This document shows, piece after piece, positions 6,227 to 13,383 of a stretch of DNA of 33,169 nucleotides (within the stretch, counting starts at the first letter, position 1; every line of letters begins with the position of its first letter). The DNA is taken from the NCBI GenBank assembly GCA_003597945.1, contig QZJS01000063.1, positions 1 to 33,169 on the forward strand, read 5' to 3'. Below the pieces are notes generated by a model that was not told where the DNA came from, searched no databases, and saw nothing but the letters and a program-made list of their open reading frames with translations. This DNA comes from Desulfobacteraceae bacterium. GTDB lineage: Bacteria > Desulfobacterota > Desulfobacteria > Desulfobacterales > Desulfosalsimonadaceae. The translations under genes and the position numbers were made by a program.

Positions 6227-6421
6227 TCAAAACTTCTTGGACAATCCGGCCTGTTTCAATACAGCATTTGCAGTATGCCTTGATTTAATGACATTATCGA
6301 CAACAAAACGGATTTGAGTGATTGGACTGAACCAGATCTCATGATCCCCTTTCCCCTGGCGTTCAAAATTACAGCCAGCCTCTCGTAAGAACATTTTGAG
6401 TTTCCGAGTGTAATCAGACAT
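6227..6421 (-). CDS. hicA: HicA-family toxin (mRNA interferase)
   Basis: This 64-aa protein matches the HicA/YcfA double-stranded-RNA-binding fold: an N-terminal helix, then GCNFERQGKGDHEIW with the catalytic His of the GDH motif, then a central strand and RHTANAVLKQAGL. HicA toxins cut mRNA during stress and are neutralised by HicB. The ATG at 6421 shares one base with the TGA of the upstream antitoxin gene (TGATG), so translation is coupled. A GTG at 6424 is also in frame. HicA commonly comes first in hicAB operons; here the antitoxin gene comes first, which is also known. The key His is present and there is no truncation, so the toxin looks intact. Confidence 0.85.
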   Translation of the reverse strand: MSDYTRKLKMFLREAGCNFERQGKGDHEIWFSPITQIRFVVDNVIKSRHTANAVLKQAGLSKKF

Positions 6422-6657
6422 CACAATTCCGCCGTCCGCCTGGCAACTTCGAAACGTCGCGTCAACAGCTCAAAGGGGAGATCGTGACCGATATCATTTC
6501 CATTTGCTTCGAATAATTCTGGAATCATTATTTTTAATTTGGTTATTAAAGCCTCCATTGTGGCATCTTCAGTTGCCAGTCCGGGGACATCATCACTGGT
6601 CGCTACCCATACAGAGGCTTCTTCATCCCACTCCGCCCTGATAAATAATGGTTTCAT
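6421..6657 (-). CDS. hicB: HicB-like antitoxin, DUF1902 type
   Basis: From ATG 6657 this is a 78-aa protein beginning MKPLFIRAEWDEEASVWVAT, followed by SDDVPGLATED. This is the partial RNase-H-like fold of HicB/DUF1902 antitoxins. A C-terminal DNA-binding (RHH/HTH) segment is not evident, so self-repression may be weak or need another factor. The frame is open upstream to 6717, but ATG 6657 is preferred: it has GGGAG 10 nt upstream, starts at the conserved domain, and the predicted -10 box (6713-6718) overlaps the longer start. The gene is coupled to hicA. Confidence 0.82.
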   Translation of the reverse strand: MKPLFIRAEWDEEASVWVATSDDVPGLATEDATMEALITKLKIMIPELFEANGNDIGHDLPFELLTRRFEVARRTAEL

Positions 6658-6785: not shown

Positions 6786-7841
6786 TTATTTGTTTATGGC
6801 CCGCTGACGGAGCAGGTGATCCGCCAGCACCAGGCAGACCATGGCCTCGCACACCACGTTGATCCGGGGGATGGCGGAAATGTCGTGGCGGCCGCCGATG
6901 GACATCTCTGTGGCCGTGTGGTCCGTTGTGATGGTTTGCTGTTCCAGGCGAATGGAGGGTATCGGCTTGACCGCGGCCCGGATGATAATGTTGTCGCCGT
7001 TGGAAATTCCCGCCAGAATGCCGCCGGCGTTGTTGGTTAAAAAACCATCGGGCGTGATGGGGTCGTTGTTTTCCGATCCTTTCATTCCGGCGGCGGCAAA
7101 ACCGGCCCCGATCTCAACGCCCTTGACCGCGCCGATGCTCATCAGTGCCCTGGCAAGGTCCGCGTCCAGCTTGTCGAATACCGGCTCTCCGAGACCGGCC
7201 GGTACGTTTTTCACCAGAACTTCCACAATCCCGCCCAAAGAATCCCCTTCCCTCCTTGCGTTTTCGGCGGTTTGAGCCATTATTTCCGCCGCATCCGGGT
7301 CTGCGCAATAAAAAAGATTTTGATCAATGACTTGGGGGTCAAAACGGTAAGCCCGGGTCTTTCCAAGGGCAACGGTATGGGCGATGATTTCGATTTTATG
7401 TTGTTTCAGCAATTCAAAGGCCACGGCTCCGGCCGCCACCCGCCCCACGGTCTCCCTGGCCGAGGCCCTGCCTCCGCCCCGCCAGTCCCGGATGCCGTAT
7501 TTGGCCTGGTAGGCAATATCCCCATGACCGGGACGGAACACATGGGCCAGTTCCTGGTATGCGTCGGAACGCGCATCCTTATTTTTCACCAGAATCATGA
7601 TGGGGGTTCCGGTGGTGCGGCCGTCAAAAACGCCGGAAAGGATTTGGGCCTGGTCCGGTTCCCTGCGGGAGGTGCTGGTGATTACTTTCCCCGGCCGGCG
7701 TCGGTTCAGCATGGCCTGGATGTCATCGGCTTCCAGTGGGATTTGGGGCGGGCACCCGTCAATAACCACGCCCACTGCCGGACCATGGGATTCGCCCCAG
7801 GTGGTGATGCGAAACAGTTTACCGAATGAATTTCCCGGCAT
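6786..7841 (-). CDS. aroC: chorismate synthase
   Basis: AroC makes chorismate from 5-enolpyruvylshikimate 3-phosphate by anti-elimination of phosphate, using reduced FMN. The 351-aa protein starts MPGNSFGKLFRITTWGESHG and contains RPGHGDIAYQAKYG, the DWRGGGRASARETVGRVAAGAVA block (phosphate and flavin binding) and C-terminal DHTATEMSIGGRHDISAIPR. The length is typical. It has no N-terminal flavin reductase domain, so it is monofunctional and uses reduced flavin supplied by the cell. ATG 7841 follows GAGGAA at good spacing and overlaps the end of aroK by 23 bp. It is the last gene of the aro operon. Confidence 0.97.
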   Translation of the reverse strand: MPGNSFGKLFRITTWGESHGPAVGVVIDGCPPQIPLEADDIQAMLNRRRPGKVITSTSRREPDQAQILSGVFDGRTTGTPIMILVKNKDARSDAYQELAHVFRPGHGDIAYQAKYGIRDWRGGGRASARETVGRVAAGAVAFELLKQHKIEIIAHTVALGKTRAYRFDPQVIDQNLFYCADPDAAEIMAQTAENARREGDSLGGIVEVLVKNVPAGLGEPVFDKLDADLARALMSIGAVKGVEIGAGFAAAGMKGSENNDPITPDGFLTNNAGGILAGISNGDNIIIRAAVKPIPSIRLEQQTITTDHTATEMSIGGRHDISAIPRINVVCEAMVCLVLADHLLRQRAINK

Positions 7842-8382
7842 AGGATTTCCTCAAGTGATTTAAAATTTTACAGCAGATTTGTTCCGCGCTGCAATGATCC
7901 GTCTCAATCCGCAAATTCATTGCCGACTGGTAAAGAGGGGTGCGCTGGGCCAGGGTTTCCACGATTTCGGTTTCTATAGGGCGATCGGTTAAGGCCGGAC
8001 GAAGTTTTTCATTCTCGGCGTCTTGTCCCATCCGGGCCATTATGGTTTCGATGTCCGCGGTCAGCCAGATCACCGCATGTCCGCTTTTTTTCATGCTGTC
8101 TACGTTGTCCGGGTCCAGAACCACACCGCCGCCCGTGGCCACGACGACCCCGTCCATTTCACCCAACTCGCGTATTACAATTTTTTCCCTGGACCGGAAT
8201 TCCTCCCACCCGAGCCGTGAAACCATGTCGGCAACGGTCATGCCGTGCTTGGCCATGAGAATAACATCGGAATCCATGAATTGCCACTCTAACTTGTGAG
8301 CCAGCCGTCGTCCGACAGTGGTCTTGCCCGTGCAGCGGTATCCGATCAGAAAAATATTCATCGGTCTTGATATCTTGTCCAT
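7819..8382 (-). CDS. aroK: shikimate kinase
   Basis: AroK phosphorylates shikimate at O3 with ATP. The 187-aa protein has Walker A GYRCTGKTT, the shikimate-binding Asp in MDSDVI, the FRSREK arginine, the ATGGGVV glycine loop and the LRPAL lid region. The start codon overlaps the aroA stop (TAATG at 8384-8380), so translation is probably coupled. An in-frame ATG at 8361 begins MNIFLIG, closer to the usual family N-terminus, and cannot be ruled out. The 3' end overlaps aroC by 23 bp. Confidence 0.95.
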   Translation of the reverse strand: MDKISRPMNIFLIGYRCTGKTTVGRRLAHKLEWQFMDSDVILMAKHGMTVADMVSRLGWEEFRSREKIVIRELGEMDGVVVATGGGVVLDPDNVDSMKKSGHAVIWLTADIETIMARMGQDAENEKLRPALTDRPIETEIVETLAQRTPLYQSAMNLRIETDHCSAEQICCKILNHLRKSYAGKFIR

Positions 8383-9638
8383 TAAGTCAGTGCATTGATA
8401 ACGTTGAAAAATCCGGGAAAGGATTTGGCCACGCAGCCTTCATTTTCAATCATGACGCCGGGAACCTTTAAGCCGGCCACGGAAAAGCACATGGCGATGC
8501 GGTGATCATCATAGGTTTTAATCCGGGCCCCATGCATGGGGCCGCCGGTCACGGAAATGCCGGAATCCCTCGTCCGGGCGTCGATCCCCATTTTGCATAG
8601 TTCGTTTTTGACGGCTTCAAGCCGGTCGCTTTCTTTTGCCCGGAGATGGGCCACATTTTCAATCACGGTGGCGCCATCGGCGAAAGCGGCAATCACCGCC
8701 AGGGTGGGAACAAGATCCGGCATGTCGGCCATATCAACGGTTACGGCGGACAGCGGCCCGCCGATAACGGTAATTCCGTCTTCATGGTATTCCACCTTAC
8801 ATCCCATGGCGGCCAGAACTTCGGCAAAACGCACATCTCCCTGCCGGGACGCTTTTGTAATTCCAAGCACCTTGACCCGGGAGCCGGTAACAGCGGCCGC
8901 GGCCCAGAAATATCCGGCCTGGGATGCATCCGGCTCCACGATATATTCACCCGATTGATACGTCTGGGCGCCCGGCACATGAAAGCCGGTATAACCGTTA
9001 CGGGCAAACGTGATCCCGAACCGGTCCATAATATCTAATGTCATGTCAATATAGGGCTTGGATACCGGCCCGCCGGTTACTTCGATATCCATGCCGCCCG
9101 GACTACAGGGCGCAATCAGCAGGAGGGCGGAAAGATACTGGCTGCTGGTGCTGCAATTAATGTGAGTCCGGGTTCCGGTAATGGTCCCGCCGGTGATGCA
9201 AACCGGCGGGCATCCGGTGTTGTTTACGGACACGGCGGAAACGCCGAGTTCCTGTAAAGCCGACAGCAGATCATTGATGGGCCGCTCCTGCATGCGGTCG
9301 GATCCGGTCAGGACATAATCGCCAATGCCAAGCGCCGCCAGCCCCGACAACAGGCGCATGGAGGTTCCGGAATTTCCCAGGTGGATCGGATGATCGCAGG
9401 GATCAAATCTTCCATTCTTGCCGCTGATGAAAATGGCGCCGGGTTCGCGGCCGACGGCAATGCCCATGCTTTCCAGGGCCGAAAGGGTCAGGCGGGTGTC
9501 ATCACTGTCTAATGAACCCAGTACGCGGCAAGGGCCGTTAGACAATGCCGCGGCCATGCAGACCCGATGGGTATAGCTTTTGGAACCGGGAACGCGGACC
9601 GTGTTATCGGTTAAATTTTTCGGAATGATTTCCATCAT
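8382..9638 (-). CDS. aroA: 3-phosphoshikimate 1-carboxyvinyltransferase (EPSP synthase)
   Basis: AroA joins PEP to shikimate 3-phosphate. The 418-aa protein has VPGSKSYTHR (substrate lysine), HLGNSGTSMRLLSGLAA (the motif around the glyphosate-binding loop), SSQYLSALLL, PDASQAGYF, the catalytic-region RAKESDRLEAV and YDDHRIAM. Length and motif order are standard. NSGTSMR has Ser where class I enzymes usually have Ala (NAGTAMR), which suggests a class II-like, Bacillus-type enzyme. The ATG at 9638 or 9635 follows AAAGGAGA. It is fourth in the aro operon and ends in a one-base overlap with aroK. Confidence 0.97.
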   Translation of the reverse strand: MMEIIPKNLTDNTVRVPGSKSYTHRVCMAAALSNGPCRVLGSLDSDDTRLTLSALESMGIAVGREPGAIFISGKNGRFDPCDHPIHLGNSGTSMRLLSGLAALGIGDYVLTGSDRMQERPINDLLSALQELGVSAVSVNNTGCPPVCITGGTITGTRTHINCSTSSQYLSALLLIAPCSPGGMDIEVTGGPVSKPYIDMTLDIMDRFGITFARNGYTGFHVPGAQTYQSGEYIVEPDASQAGYFWAAAAVTGSRVKVLGITKASRQGDVRFAEVLAAMGCKVEYHEDGITVIGGPLSAVTVDMADMPDLVPTLAVIAAFADGATVIENVAHLRAKESDRLEAVKNELCKMGIDARTRDSGISVTGGPMHGARIKTYDDHRIAMCFSVAGLKVPGVMIENEGCVAKSFPGFFNVINALT

Positions 9639-9706: not shown

Positions 9707-10525
9707 TTATTTATTTTGCAACGCGGCGTAAACGGCCTGTTTCATCTGCTCCAGCGGGGCCTGGATTTTAGTCCACCATTCAAACTGCATGGCGCCCTGG
9801 TAAACAAACATGGAAACCCCGTCAACAATGCGGCAGCCCCGGGCGGCGGCTTCTTGGAGCAGCCGGGTCCGGACGGGATGATAGACAATGTCCATGACAA
9901 GCATATGGGGATGCAGCGCGTCAGCGGATATGGGCATAGCATTTATATCCGGATGCATGCCCACCGGCGTGGTGTTGATCAGGATATCGATGGATTCCCC
10001 GCTTACCTGATCAAGAGGGCAAAAATCAGCGCCAAGGGCCGAAGCCAGCGCTTCTCCGTTTTTCCGGGAGCGGCTGGCGATACAGACCCGGGCGCCCTGC
10101 CGGATCATGCCGAAAGCAACGGCTCGGGCCGCGCCGCCGGCGCCCAGGATCATAACATCTTGGTCAGTGAGAGGGGCGTGTTCGGCAATGGCCCGCACCG
10201 CGCCGTCGCAATCGGAATTGCGGCCCGTCAACCGGCCGTCCGTATTGACAATGGTGTTGACCGCGCCGATTTTTTCGGCAATTTCATCAACCGCGTCAAG
10301 ATGTTTTATAATGCTGACCTTGTGGGGGATGGTCACGCTCACACCGGCGATATTTAATGCCATGATGCCGGATACGGCGGCCTTGACATCTTTTACCCGA
10401 AAGGCCGCGTACACGCCCGGATATCCGGTGATGTCAAAAGCCCGGTTGTGCATGACCGGCCCCAGACTGTGGGATACGGGATCACCGATCACGCCGTAAA
10501 TCCTGGTTGCGGCGGTCAGGTTCAT
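9707..10525 (-). CDS. aroE: shikimate 5-dehydrogenase
   Basis: AroE reduces 3-dehydroshikimate to shikimate with NADPH. The 272-aa protein has the N-terminal substrate domain (GDPVSHSLGPVMHN, VTIPHK with the catalytic lysine, NSDCDGAVRAI with the catalytic Asp) and a Rossmann domain with GAGGAARAVAFG. Asn-Ser-Asp replaces the more common Asn-Thr-Asp, a mild change. SRSRKN after the second strand fits NADPH 2'-phosphate binding. The ATG follows GAGGAAAA. Many bacteria fuse AroD to AroE. Here AroE stands alone and no aroD is present, so 3-dehydroquinate dehydratase must be encoded elsewhere. Confidence 0.96.
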   Translation of the reverse strand: MNLTAATRIYGVIGDPVSHSLGPVMHNRAFDITGYPGVYAAFRVKDVKAAVSGIMALNIAGVSVTIPHKVSIIKHLDAVDEIAEKIGAVNTIVNTDGRLTGRNSDCDGAVRAIAEHAPLTDQDVMILGAGGAARAVAFGMIRQGARVCIASRSRKNGEALASALGADFCPLDQVSGESIDILINTTPVGMHPDINAMPISADALHPHMLVMDIVYHPVRTRLLQEAAARGCRIVDGVSMFVYQGAMQFEWWTKIQAPLEQMKQAVYAALQNK

Positions 10526-10575: not shown

Positions 10576-11568
10576 TCATCGTTCCATGATGGTCTCATCA
10601 ATCTGCATGCCGAAATGCCGGCCGACAGCCTCCATTGCCACCAGGACCTTGTCGCCGGGTTTCAACGTCACCACGGAAACCGGGTTCCCCTCCGGATCGG
10701 TCAATCGAATGGTCTCGGCGTTCTGGAGAATGGTGGCGATCTCCTGCCCGCCTGTTTTTGCCCGAACCAGCAGCAGGGGGCGTTTCTCGATCTTGACCCG
10801 GCCCACTGTTCCCATACTGGATCTGCCGGTGTAATCGGTGATCAATACCGGATCACCCGCAACAAGTTCCGAAAGATAACGGGTTTTGTTTCCCGGCACC
10901 CGGGTATAGGCATGCACCGGACCGGCATTGACCCGAAACGGACGCGGCGAAACATATGGATTGACCACGCTTTCGGCATGCACCAGAAACAGGGCGCCGC
11001 TGCTGTTGCCCACCAGCAGCCCCTCTCCTTTTTCCATGTGGGTGCAGGTATCCACGCAGACCCGGTCCCCCATGCCCGCGGGCCGGATCTCGGTGATTTC
11101 GGCGGTTTCCAATGCAATGGTTTCAACATCGGACTTGAGCCGATCAAGAGTTCTTTTGACTTCCAGGGGATCACGGGTGCAGAGCAGAATCCGGTTCACC
11201 CCTTTTTCAAGGGTGCCGAAAGCGGTCTGGGCCTCATCGAGTGAATGGACCCGTGCGATGATATCAGCGCCCCGGGCAATGAGATTTTCAAGAGGGATCA
11301 CCGACCAATCCGTACATTCCAAAATCACCGGCGTGCTTTTTGATATCTGCGCAATCTCATCTTCATCCTGGCCGCTTTTGATGGTGCGGGTGACCACATC
11401 CACCCCGAGCCGGATATCCCCGTCTTCAGCAATGGTGTCGATGCGTCCCAGTGCCTTGACCTTTTCCGAATAGCCGGCGGGAACCAGCACGCCGTCGGCC
11501 CCGCCTTCCAGAGCCGTGGTTACCAATTCCTTATCCCATGGATCAATGTTAATCCAGATTTTCCGCAT
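10576..11568 (-). CDS. aroB': 3-dehydroquinate synthase II (archaeal type)
   Basis: The product belongs to the DHQS II family (Methanocaldococcus MJ1249). These enzymes oxidatively deaminate and cyclise 2-amino-3,7-dideoxy-D-threo-hept-6-ulosonate to 3-dehydroquinate with NAD+. It replaces classical AroB. From ATG 11568 the protein has 330 residues and begins MRKIWINIDPWDKELVTTAL. Family features include the C-terminal block VNAGPVHAYTRVPGNKTRYLSEL and GDPVLITDYTGRSSMGTVGR. The frame is open upstream to 11607, but ATG 11568 has GGGAGA 6 nt upstream and matches the family start. It lies directly after the ADTH synthase gene, its partner in the same bypass. Confidence 0.95.
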   Translation of the reverse strand: MRKIWINIDPWDKELVTTALEGGADGVLVPAGYSEKVKALGRIDTIAEDGDIRLGVDVVTRTIKSGQDEDEIAQISKSTPVILECTDWSVIPLENLIARGADIIARVHSLDEAQTAFGTLEKGVNRILLCTRDPLEVKRTLDRLKSDVETIALETAEITEIRPAGMGDRVCVDTCTHMEKGEGLLVGNSSGALFLVHAESVVNPYVSPRPFRVNAGPVHAYTRVPGNKTRYLSELVAGDPVLITDYTGRSSMGTVGRVKIEKRPLLLVRAKTGGQEIATILQNAETIRLTDPEGNPVSVVTLKPGDKVLVAMEAVGRHFGMQIDETIMER

Positions 11569-11626
11569 GCCTGTTCTCCCTGATAAATAAAAAAAGGATG
11601 AATTCAAAAAACTTCAATATTTCTCC

Positions 11627-12424
11627 TTATGCCAGTAATTTCAGGGCAGCGTCAACTGTGTCGTTTTCAAAAATAATTTTGGCCATGGCCCTTACCATGG
11701 CGGGCGGATTGACATGCTGGAAGACGTTGCGGCCGATGGATGCGCCTGCCGCGCCCGCATCCATGGCACCCCTGACCATCTCAAGAATGTCGCGATCCGA
11801 ATCCATCTTGGCGCCGCCGGCAATCACCACCGGAACGGTGCTGCCCTCCACCACCTGCCGGAAGGTTTCCGGAGAACCGGTATAGGAGACCTTGACGATA
11901 TCCGCACCCATCTCGCATCCCACCCGGGCCGCGTGTTTGACCACTTCCACATCATATTCATCCCTGATATTCTGGCCCCTCGGATACATCATGGCCAATA
12001 GCGGCATGCCCCAGTTGCGCGCCTCGTAGCTGACCCTGCCGAAATCGTGGAGCATCTCCCGTTCCTGTTCATCACCGATGTTGATATGAATGGAGACCGC
12101 GTCCGCGCCCAGTTTTATGGCTTCTTCCACCGAGCTGACCAGTGTTTTGGAGTGGGGGTGCGGCGACAGGGACGTGGACGCGGACAGATGGATGATCAGC
12201 CCGATATCCGAGCCGCTGCGCCGATGCCCGGCTCCCACAAGCCCCTTGTGCTCCACAATGGCTTTGGCGCCGCCTTCGGCCACAAGGGCCACGGTTTCCC
12301 GTATGTCGCAGATGCCTTCAATGGGTCCCACGGAAACCCCGTGATCCAGCGGCACGATGATGGTATGCCCGGTGTTGCGGTCCATGATGCGTTCCATGCG
12401 AATCTGCTTGCCGATGATGGTCAT
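11627..12424 (-). CDS. aroA': 2-amino-3,7-dideoxy-D-threo-hept-6-ulosonate (ADTH) synthase
   Basis: This class I aldolase condenses a 6-deoxy-5-ketofructose 1-phosphate derivative with L-aspartate semialdehyde, the first step of the archaeal-type route to dehydroquinate (MJ0400 family). The 265-aa protein has [11 protein letters not shown] (Asp27), MMYPRG (Tyr147) and [13 protein letters not shown], where Lys178 is in the Schiff-base position, followed by [11 protein letters not shown] and [13 protein letters not shown] for phosphate binding. The family resembles archaeal fructose-bisphosphate aldolases, but its place next to DHQS II and aroE/A/K/C fixes the role. ATG 12424 follows AAGGAG. 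It is the first gene of the operon and lies 40 nt after the attenuator T-run, so attenuation gates the whole pathway. Confidence 0.95.
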
Positions 12425-12463
12425 GGTCTTCTCCTTTTGATGATGGTGACAGTGGCGTTTAAC

Positions 12464-12499
12464 AAAAAAAAGCCGCAGGCTTTTTTGCCTGCGGCTTTT
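12464..12499 (-). terminator. attenuator terminator of the aro operon
   Basis: On the minus strand, AAAAGCCGCAGGC (12499-12487) and GCCTGCGGCTTTT (12480-12468) form up to 13 bp around a six-A loop and run into eight T (12471-12464). It sits between the leader peptide and aroA', so it is an attenuator and not an end-of-operon terminator. The A-rich 5' flank would also let it end plus-strand transcripts. Confidence 0.93.
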
Positions 12500-12538
12500 G
12501 GGTCTCGTGTCTTTTTTTTTCTTCAGTATGTCTTCATC

Positions 12539-12628
12539 TCATACCGGAGGGGAGCCCTTTCCGCAGGCGCAGCAATAGCTATAATACCAGTAGTAATAAA
12601 AGCTGCGTATGCTTGAGGAGGTTCCCAT
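12539..12628 (-). CDS. aromatic-rich attenuator leader peptide (29 aa)
   Basis: A 29-codon frame begins ATG GGA ACC and ends in TGA at 12541-12539. Residues 10-18 are FYYYWYYSY, so eight of nine codons specify an aromatic amino acid (six Tyr, one Phe, one Trp). The next residues, CCACG, are encoded by the bases that form RNA segment 2, so they are probably set by the RNA pairing. The nearest Shine-Dalgarno-like sequence, AAGGTGAG, ends about 13 nt before the ATG, which is long. An in-frame GTG at 12646 is a weaker alternative. The peptide itself probably has no function; its role is to report charging of tRNA-Tyr and, less strongly, tRNA-Phe and tRNA-Trp. Confidence 0.88.
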   Translation of the reverse strand: MGTSSSIRSFYYYWYYSYCCACGKGSPPV

Positions 12629-12684
12629 TACCGGATGTTTTCTCACCTTTTTCTTCTGGTTGTCTATTTTTAATTCAACGCTTA

Positions 12685-12712
12685 TTTATAACTTTTTGAC
12701 TATCTGACCCAA
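12685..12712 (-). promoter_or_regulatory. promoter of the aro operon
   Basis: TTGGGT (12712-12707) and TATAAA (12690-12685) are 16 nt apart on the minus strand, 24 nt after the stop of the PHP gene. The predicted start near 12678 would place the leader peptide start about 50 nt into the transcript, as in known attenuated leaders. The -35 match is weak. Confidence 0.5.
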
Positions 12713-12735: not shown

Positions 12736-13383
12736 TTACCGTTTTTTTTCAATCAGCAGGGCCGCGTTGCGCTGCATGTCGACAAAAACGCTGCGGTCCA
12801 GACCGGCGCCGCGCACGATGCGTTCGGCAATCCCGGCATCGATAAGATCCCCGGGGCCGTGTGAATCCGTGTTGATAACAAGTTTTGCGCCGCATTGTTG
12901 AGCCAGCCGGGCCACATGGCCGTTGGTCAGACTGTGACCTTTCCGTGCGGTGATTTCAAGAAGGACCCCGCCATCCCGAGCGGCCATGACATCTTCTTCA
13001 CTGATCAGTCCGGGATGGGCCAGGATATCGGCGCCTGCCGCAATGGCGGCCGCGTTGGTGCCGGGGGCCACGGGTTCGGCAATGGTTTCTCCGTGAACAA
13101 TGACGATGGATGCGCCAAGGTCGCGCGCTTTGGTGACCGTGTCCTTTATAAGTCCGGGGGGCACATGGGTGATCTCGATGCCCGGTATGATGCGGATGGA
13201 CAGCACCGGATTTAATTGTTTGGCAACCGCCACGATTCTTGGGATAATAAAATCAAGATTGGAAAGATCCCCGTGATCCGTGATGCCGATGACGCTTAAT
13301 CCCCGGGCCTCGGCCCTTCGCGCCAGTTCAGAGGGGATCAGCTCACCGTCGCTGAAAATAGAATGGCTATGCAGATCGATCAT
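12736..13383 (-). CDS. PHP-domain metal-dependent phosphoesterase
   Basis: The 215-aa protein is a complete PHP domain: MIDLHSHSIFSDG (His5, His7), GITDHGDL (Asp36, His37), GIEITHV, IVHGE, ILAHPG and NTDSHG, together the metal ligands of this trinuclear hydrolase fold. Members include histidinol phosphatase HisK, YcdX-type phosphatases and the DNA polymerase PHP domain. The substrate cannot be read from the sequence. It is a stand-alone protein of usual length and the last gene of the DUF4911-miaB operon, starting 6 nt after the preceding stop. It lies next to the aro operon but has a separate promoter, so a role in aromatic synthesis should not be assumed. Confidence 0.88.
   Translation of the reverse strand: MIDLHSHSIFSDGELIPSELARRAEARGLSVIGITDHGDLSNLDFIIPRIVAVAKQLNPVLSIRIIPGIEITHVPPGLIKDTVTKARDLGASIVIVHGETIAEPVAPGTNAAAIAAGADILAHPGLISEEDVMAARDGGVLLEITARKGHSLTNGHVARLAQQCGAKLVINTDSHGPGDLIDAGIAERIVRGAGLDRSVFVDMQRNAALLIEKKR

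Follow-up and report, generated by a model that had tools for sequence, protein, structure and literature searches.

The closest described counterparts of the locus reported here are the attenuators of the trp and phe operons of Proteobacteria, which likewise combine a product-rich leader peptide, competition among 1:2, 2:3 and 3:4 pairings, and a U-run terminator before the first gene. In other species, Phe is described in the portion of PMC1262725 available as attenuator-controlled and Tyr as T-box-controlled; the latter arrangement also reads tRNA charging, whereas at the present locus the sensing would be done by the translating ribosome instead. The attenuator families in Rfam at the time of PMC3766115 were His, Leu, Thr and Trp, according to the part of that article available. 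At the gene considered here, a putative attenuator before aroA'>aroB'>aroQ-pheA>aroF>tyrA>[trp operon] of Desulfovibrio vulgaris appears in Table 7 of PMC1173090 (2005), an entry which that article's accessible text attributes to a website of predicted attenuators.

The present locus lies in a stretch of 33,169 nucleotides from a Desulfobacteraceae bacterium (contig QZJS01000063.1), called the window below. In this window, an operon of the order aroA'-aroB'-aroE-aroA-shikimate kinase-aroC follows a short aromatic-rich frame on the minus strand (Table 1). The upstream neighbour of the leader is a PHP-domain gene (12736-13383) of the same direction, and past aroC two small adjoining frames (6227-6657, minus strand) resemble a HicA/HicB toxin-antitoxin pair.

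Table 1. Features of the aro leader and operon; positions refer to the window unless another contig is named.
Feature	Position	Strand	Remark
Leader ORF MGTSSSIRSFYYYWYYSYCCACGKGSPPV	12539..12628	-	Frame read in window; counterparts in 84/115 relatives' upstream regions, the window's own counted
Aromatic codon run FYYYWYYSY (1 Phe, 6 Tyr, 1 Trp)	12575..12601	-	
Segment 1 core CGCAGC (1:2 helix, upstream arm)	12602..12607	-	Predicted stem extends further up
1:2 helix, downstream arm GCTGCG	12568..12573	-	
Segment 2 GCCTGCGG (antiterminator arm)	12561..12568	-	Letters also present in segment 4
Segment 3, 5' terminator arm	12487..12499	-	Its CCGCAGGC (12494-12487) also pairs with segment 2
Segment 4, 3' terminator arm: GCCTGCGG (12480-12473) + CTTTT	12468..12480	-	
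Eight-T run of intrinsic terminator	12464..12471	-	First four T also close the stem
AAGGAG, aroA' ribosome-binding site	12431..12436	-	By eye
aroA', ADTH synthase	11627..12424	-	TIGR01949, 364.6 bits, cut-off 299.45
aroB', 3-dehydroquinate synthase II	10576..11607	-	NF002627, 491 bits, cut-off 392
aroE, shikimate dehydrogenase	9707..10525	-	TIGR00507, 260.7 bits, cut-off 200.2
aroA, EPSP synthase	8382..9638	-	TIGR01356, 447.2 bits, cut-off 287.25
Shikimate kinase-like gene	7819..8382	-	Best NF002988, 155.8 bits, slightly below cut-off 161
aroC, chorismate synthase	6786..7841	-	TIGR00033, 422.8 bits, cut-off 212.2
Classical DAHP synthase gene next to an AroB gene	L318 980-3146		Contig C98 of the same genome

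The leader frame comprises 29 codons, from ATG 12628 to TGA 12541-12539; GTG at 12646 offers an in-frame alternative start, and ATG 12628 is favoured because many relatives start about nine codons ahead of the aromatic run. Eight of the nine codons of the run are aromatic (Phe 12601; Tyr 12598, 12595 and 12592; Trp 12589; Tyr 12586, 12583 and 12577), with chorismate genes downstream, and they sit inside the loop of the 1:2 hairpin formed by CGCAGC and GCTGCG. The 2:3 helix joins GCCTGCGG to CCGCAGGC over 8 bp, and the 3:4 terminator stem measures 13 bp. Segments 2 and 4 both read GCCTGCGG, and the 1:2, 2:3 and 3:4 pairings are mutually exclusive. Thus the original prediction of a 29-codon aromatic leader, a hairpin looping out its aromatic codons, an 8-bp antiterminator, an eight-T terminator ahead of aroA' and an explicit competition for segment 3 through the shared letters is borne out part by part in the window. 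The leader region folds with a z-score of -2.76, a value as good being reached in 0 of 100 shuffles, and the six-codon core pattern occurs at two places in the 3.7-Mb genome, compared with one for the reversed control pattern. A consensus promoter scan found 0 (0.4 expected by chance); a TTGACA is present at 12729-12724.

Relatives of aroA' were gathered by one scan of genome contigs (77 loci) and by whole-genome searches of the family and the phylum, which gave matches in 26 of 36 and 123 of 395 genomes, respectively. Upstream regions were taken from the returned loci and from 40 places picked for family spread, a subset of all matches, leaving out six bacterial loci with less than 250 nt upstream (L012, L026, L027, L029, L076 and L095). 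The distinct set comprises 115 regions with 84 leaders, and some tests used 118 regions with 87 leaders, including the duplicates L126, L188 and L198. The proposed search for aromatic frames ahead of aroA' homologues in Desulfobacterota was successful: at least six Phe, Tyr or Trp codons in ten occur in 84/115 regions, compared with 8/115 reverse complements and 30/1150 shuffles, and the corresponding counts are 76, 3 and 3 for at least seven and 57, 1 and 0 for at least eight, counts which are not probabilities, the relatives' sequences not being independent. The frame is absent from 31/115 regions. Among the 32 families sampled with at least one region, 18 contribute leaders, by a hand count in which contig-scan loci bear no family labels. 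A terminator-like hairpin with a T run comes after every leader (84/84), while any such hairpin is present in the last 180 nt of 10/31 leaderless relatives and 10/87 shuffled stretches of leader loci. A second hairpin of this kind occurs in 49/84 leaders and was not found in the window. Synonymous versus non-synonymous change was set aside as support for coding, showing no clear purifying signal (72 synonymous to 231 not in the Desulfobacterota core).

Two further groups of loci were met in this survey. In Phycisphaerae, two regions before ADTH synthase (L057, the same as L144, and L065, the same as L175) hold an aromatic frame with a terminator-like hairpin further on, and the other regions of this group (L135, the same as L184; L136; L176-L183) reach at most five aromatic codons, L180 being only 107 nt long. 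In the window's own family, a second ADTH synthase-like gene (L104-L107), 56-58% identical, comes without an aromatic leader; it groups with Methanomicrobia rows in the tree, which suggests transfer.

The pairings were examined across the relatives in alignment A1, which consists of 42 leaders hand-picked from the 71 non-redundant among 80 stretches. In A1, 93.1% of cells are paired for 3:4, 92.9% for 2:3 and 85.3% for 1:2, versus at most 58.6, 46.6 and 40.1% in slid versions. None of 500 shuffles reaches the covariation score of 3:4 or of 1:2, while 2:3 covariation is weak (score 0.200, shuffles 0.191, 71/500 as high). Segment 3 is held by two partners, and therefore a swap between leader types was used besides covariation. 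Sorting of the peptide ends by hand gave 67 leaders of type A, 15 of type B and 5 of type C out of 87. Type B has different letters in segments 2 and 3, and its segment 2 pairs at -21.8 with the segment 3 of its own type and at -13.4 with that of type A; when, conversely, type A segment 2 is set against type B segment 3, the cost is small (-19.6 vs. -21.7). Over 84 leaders, the mean 2:3 energy is -21.9 kcal/mol for the own pairing, -18.4 kcal/mol with segment 3 swapped between loci and -12.7 kcal/mol with segment 2 shuffled, the own pairing beating its mean swap in 69/84. For 1:2, the means are -25.0 (own), -18.3 (swapped) and -17.6 kcal/mol (shuffled), and the own pairing beats the mean swap in 80/84.

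In order to follow the switch, the RNA made before segment 4 was folded with a ribosome placed at each codon in turn; its footprint, counted from the first base of the codon in the A site, was assumed to cover the 18 nt upstream of this base and 14 nt from it on. Placing the A site anywhere in codons 0-15, a range that takes in seven of the eight aromatic codons, leaves segment 3 paired with segment 2 at 8/8 positions, and at codon 16 (Ser 12580) 6/8 are so paired. From Tyr 12577 onward, the ribosome covers segment 2 and segment 3 can pair with segment 4 instead, and therefore the three Cys codons that follow would not antiterminate. However, in the complete RNA at equilibrium, 3:4 is preferred at every stall position except Tyr 12583, so that the model needs co-transcriptional folding, i.e., the order of synthesis, as in trp. 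The same simulation was run for the family on 87 rows, and the counts below are for the 84 leaders left after dropping the three duplicates, which do not figure among the exceptions listed. With a stall in the first half of the run, segment 3 is engaged upstream in 84/84 leaders, compared with 13/84 with the ribosome at the stop codon; the full switch pattern is seen in 71/84 and is incomplete in 13/84.

In the proposed mechanism, a ribosome would follow the polymerase into the leader frame. When charged tRNA runs short for any aromatic amino acid, this ribosome would stall on the run, covering segment 1 and leaving segment 2 free; segment 2 would pair with segment 3 before segment 4 exists, no terminator would form, and the aro operon would be transcribed. 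When charging is sufficient, the ribosome would reach the end of the frame and cover segment 2, 3:4 would form, and transcription would stop before aroA'. Without translation, 1:2 would form and termination would be the default. The parts, their conservation, the exclusive pairings and the switch in simulated folds are results of computation, whereas transcription and translation of the leader, the dependence of stalling on tRNA charging, and the sign and size of the effect are inferred. With a probability of about 0.88, the leader is judged to act by classical ribosome-mediated transcription attenuation and to sense Phe, Tyr and Trp together through a mixed leader peptide. The predicted ribosome-stalling attenuator with 2:3 vs. 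3:4 competition is thus supported by the anatomy and by the simulated switch, and is conserved though the letters change; the folding of the three helices that had been suggested as a check gave the switch in simulated folds of the RNA made before segment 4, and 3:4 at equilibrium at all stall positions but one.

The leader had originally been called tyrosine-dominated, and the first alternative is that it is a tyrosine-specific or tyrosine-led attenuator, which would respond to the charging of Tyr-tRNA and contain Phe and Trp only incidentally. The description holds for the window, where six of the eight aromatic codons are Tyr, and Tyr is also the commonest codon overall in the runs of the 84 leaders (384 Tyr, 289 Phe and 77 Trp, out of 750). 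However, it does not hold as the signal of the family, as all three aromatic amino acids are present in 65/84 leaders. Tyr outnumbers Phe in 46/84 leaders, equals it in 21 and is outnumbered in 17, i.e., Phe is at least as frequent as Tyr in 38/84. In 47 related leader pairs, the aromatic sites comprise 339 identical, 34 synonymous, 47 aromatic-to-aromatic and 75 aromatic-to-other cases, and F-Y swaps make up 43 of the 122 amino-acid differences. What the family keeps is the aromatic class and not tyrosine as such, as would suit a gate on the common pathway, and a signal led by tyrosine is considered improbable, roughly a one-in-eight prospect, though Tyr may weigh most in this one species.

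A second alternative is an arrest by the nascent peptide, as in TnaC, in which the peptide, perhaps through a Gly-Leu-Pro end, would halt the ribosome in response to a free aromatic compound. A Gly-Leu-Pro motif does come after the run in many leaders. However, the letters that encode it, GGTCTGCC, are those of segment 2, the partner of segment 3, and both the type B leaders and the window have lost the motif while keeping the pairing. In the window, segment 2 is shifted: the letters aligned with the relatives' GGTCTGCCTG are changed, and the pairing uses GCCTGCGG slightly upstream. The frequent interchange of F and Y is also unlike an arrest motif, and peptide-mediated arrest is therefore very unlikely.

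Less likely still, with nothing found in its favour, is a region that senses by binding a protein or ligand (TRAP-like, T-box or riboswitch) and to which the peptide would be irrelevant, since the conserved item is a frame that reads aromatic. Rfam at gathering score gave no match in the window and none at the leaders of 18 related loci, where the lone match is a tmRNA elsewhere in L044; this absence speaks weakly against such a sensor, as Rfam at the same score misses the WWWW leader of a trpE-like gene of this genome. The permissive Rfam list for the window holds Thr_leader as its only leader family (17.4 bits, threshold 55), and the T-box model has no match in the window, including in that list. 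Finally, the hairpin could simply terminate the PHP gene upstream, the aromatic frame being there by chance, as that gene is codirectional and stops some 235 nt ahead of the terminator, but this is scarcely credible, since the frame is found in 84/115 relatives' regions, always before a terminator-like hairpin, and since the upstream gene diverges in 17/66 rows, where the terminator cannot therefore belong to it. By the longest-frame rule, the upstream gene has the same direction in 47 of these 66 rows and is missing in 2 (one duplicate included), and read-in from upstream is therefore possible at those 47 loci and in the window.

The genome also encodes two DAHP synthases, one of which adjoins an AroB gene; a third PF00793 match was rejected as a DAHP synthase, being KDO-8-phosphate synthase. 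With these genes in addition to aroA' and aroB', there are two entries to dehydroquinate in this organism. The original label of a 'bypass' is therefore apt insofar as the archaeal-type route through ADTH synthase and DHQS II is present, but this is one of two routes. No short frame with at least six aromatic codons in ten was found in 5.7 kb around the DAHP synthase-AroB pair or in 3.5 kb around the other DAHP synthase, and thus, of the two entries, the aromatic leader was found only at the archaeal-type one. Elsewhere in the genome, a trpE-like gene has a YWWWW leader frame (L321 1402-1289, minus strand, contig C58), followed by two terminator-like hairpins. The contig ends within this gene, whose best matches, to anthranilate synthase component I, are below cut-offs.

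The contig scan also brought methanogens with an aromatic-rich frame ahead of ADTH synthase. In the class of Methanoculleus, which we take to be Methanomicrobia, ADTH synthase is matched in 205/232 genomes, and regions were taken from 30 returned loci, 40 hand-chosen ones and others, leaving out L165 with 1 nt upstream. All 79 distinct regions of the class reach at least five aromatic codons in ten and 57 reach at least six. By eye, an aromatic-rich short frame lies before the orthologous gene in 78/79, the best frame of L228 being a different one far from the gene. Archaeal loci with a frame are L061-L064, L067, L073, L075, L146-L174, L225-L264 and L269-L283. Among 89 archaeal regions of several groups, 56 reach six, compared with 0/89 reverse complements and 13/890 shuffles. 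In other classes of the same archaeal phylum, none of 25 distinct hand-picked regions (L284-L308; L309 repeats L286, which is only 153 nt long) reaches six, the best having five.

The archaeal frames often end at a hairpin that lies over the ribosome-binding site of the gene and adjoins the stop codon. The hairpin set comprises 65 leaders (63 distinct) out of 72 candidates, seven being left out for a gap outside 15-90 nt or for want of a start codon. The gap from frame to gene folds with a mean z of -1.83 in these 65 leaders, compared with -0.29 in 20 leaderless controls, and z is below -1.5 in 41/65 and 2/20, respectively. A ribosome-binding site was found in 63/65 leaders, half or more of it being paired in 51, the controls giving 8 and 4 out of 20. 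The hairpin starts 0-5 nt from the stop codon in 63/65, which is partly by construction, as only the gap was folded, and the frame has its last aromatic codon in final or penultimate position in 61/65. A swap test of this hairpin gave -13.9 for own, -11.7 for swapped and -9.8 for shuffled pairings, with 34% of swaps as good, a result that is only moderate because the binding sites are alike. In Methanoculleus, the one operon examined has two genes above the ADTH synthase cut-off, then DHQ synthase II, together with prephenate dehydrogenase-like and prephenate dehydratase-like genes, both below cut-offs.

An archaeal ribosome slowed on the last Phe, Tyr or Trp codons would sit on the 5' arm of the hairpin and hold the binding site open; stalls earlier in the run would not open the hairpin, and the model would suit mild limitation best. 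It is considered slightly more likely than not that, in archaea of this class, an aromatic-rich leader peptide controls the aromatic pathway via translation and arose apart from the terminator-type switch of Desulfobacterota. A supported group (99/98) in the ADTH synthase tree unites 22 Methanomicrobia rows and is separate from the Desulfobacterota rows with leaders; over the tree, the leader label needs 8 changes, 7 of them forced by supported branches. This disfavours a single origin of the bacterial and archaeal leaders and makes separate origins appear likelier. The label was cut at five aromatic codons, and the doubtful rows L078 and L049 (both five) thus count as leader; twelve archaeal rows (L267-L269, L271, L272, L274, L275, L277, L279-L281 and L283) were labelled 'leader' ahead of measuring, and these rows or their copies, later measured, all have at least five.

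The last 14 codons of the archaeal frames show 63 synonymous to 126 non-synonymous changes, i.e., no clear purifying signal. At the frame start (GTG AAT GTT TTT TCG CCG GTG and neighbours), the DNA is conserved at third codon positions too, and a conserved N-terminal peptide motif VNVFSPV was set aside for this reason; the conserved DNA may instead be an RNA or DNA element. The frame start is overlapped by a second frame from an ATG slightly upstream. At L061, L063, L247, L249 and L258, GTACCA-like letters in the loop of the binding-site hairpin offer a pairing partner to the two final codons, TGGTAC, and by eye this is an H-type pseudoknot layout.

If the attenuator reading is right, the archaeal-type shikimate entry of these bacteria has a concrete control that reads all three aromatic end products together, and one genome combines the aro leader with a Trp-rich one ahead of a trpE-like gene. 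The archaeal counterpart would be the more surprising lead: if true, there are amino-acid-sensing leader peptides in archaea, two domains use the same sensor at one gene with two switches, and archaeal ribosomes as charging sensors become a testable idea. Among the matches listed in searches of the open literature, judged by title or abstract start, there is no aromatic or tyrosine leader attenuator in this bacterial group and no case of an archaeal amino-acid-sensing leader peptide. The portions available of PMC5764234, PMC11124144 and PMC4833913 contain nothing on this aro leader. Small frames in 5'-UTRs of Methanosarcina are described in the accessible part of PMC11456600, and a passage of PMC10219788 states in general terms that regulatory upstream frames occur in archaea.

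Compared with known systems, the archaeal frames resemble the ermC-type translational attenuation outlined in that passage (PMC10219788) in having a short frame beside a hairpin masking the gene's ribosome-binding site, but differ in that the signal would be amino-acid charging, the host is an archaeon, and an alternative antisequester helix was not seen as a general feature. For the bacterial leader, the nearest precedent is the D. vulgaris attenuator of PMC1173090, which concerns the same gene and position; five leaders with aromatic runs (L213, L215, L217, L220 and L224) come from a family, f49, that appears to be Desulfovibrio-like. The original prediction knew of no such attenuator as described, which stands insofar as the text consulted on the 2005 table entry gives no leader peptide, amino-acid sensor or relatives, but not for an aroA' attenuator as such, which that entry lists. 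The attenuator mechanism is thus a known one, here confirmed and conserved, while the sensor mix and the target are new, though partly anticipated by the 2005 listing. In contrast to the trp and phe attenuators of Proteobacteria, the sensor is a mixed Phe/Tyr/Trp peptide, the hosts are Desulfobacterota, the operon is that of the common pathway and starts with ADTH synthase and DHQ synthase II, and 49/84 loci carry a second terminator-like hairpin.
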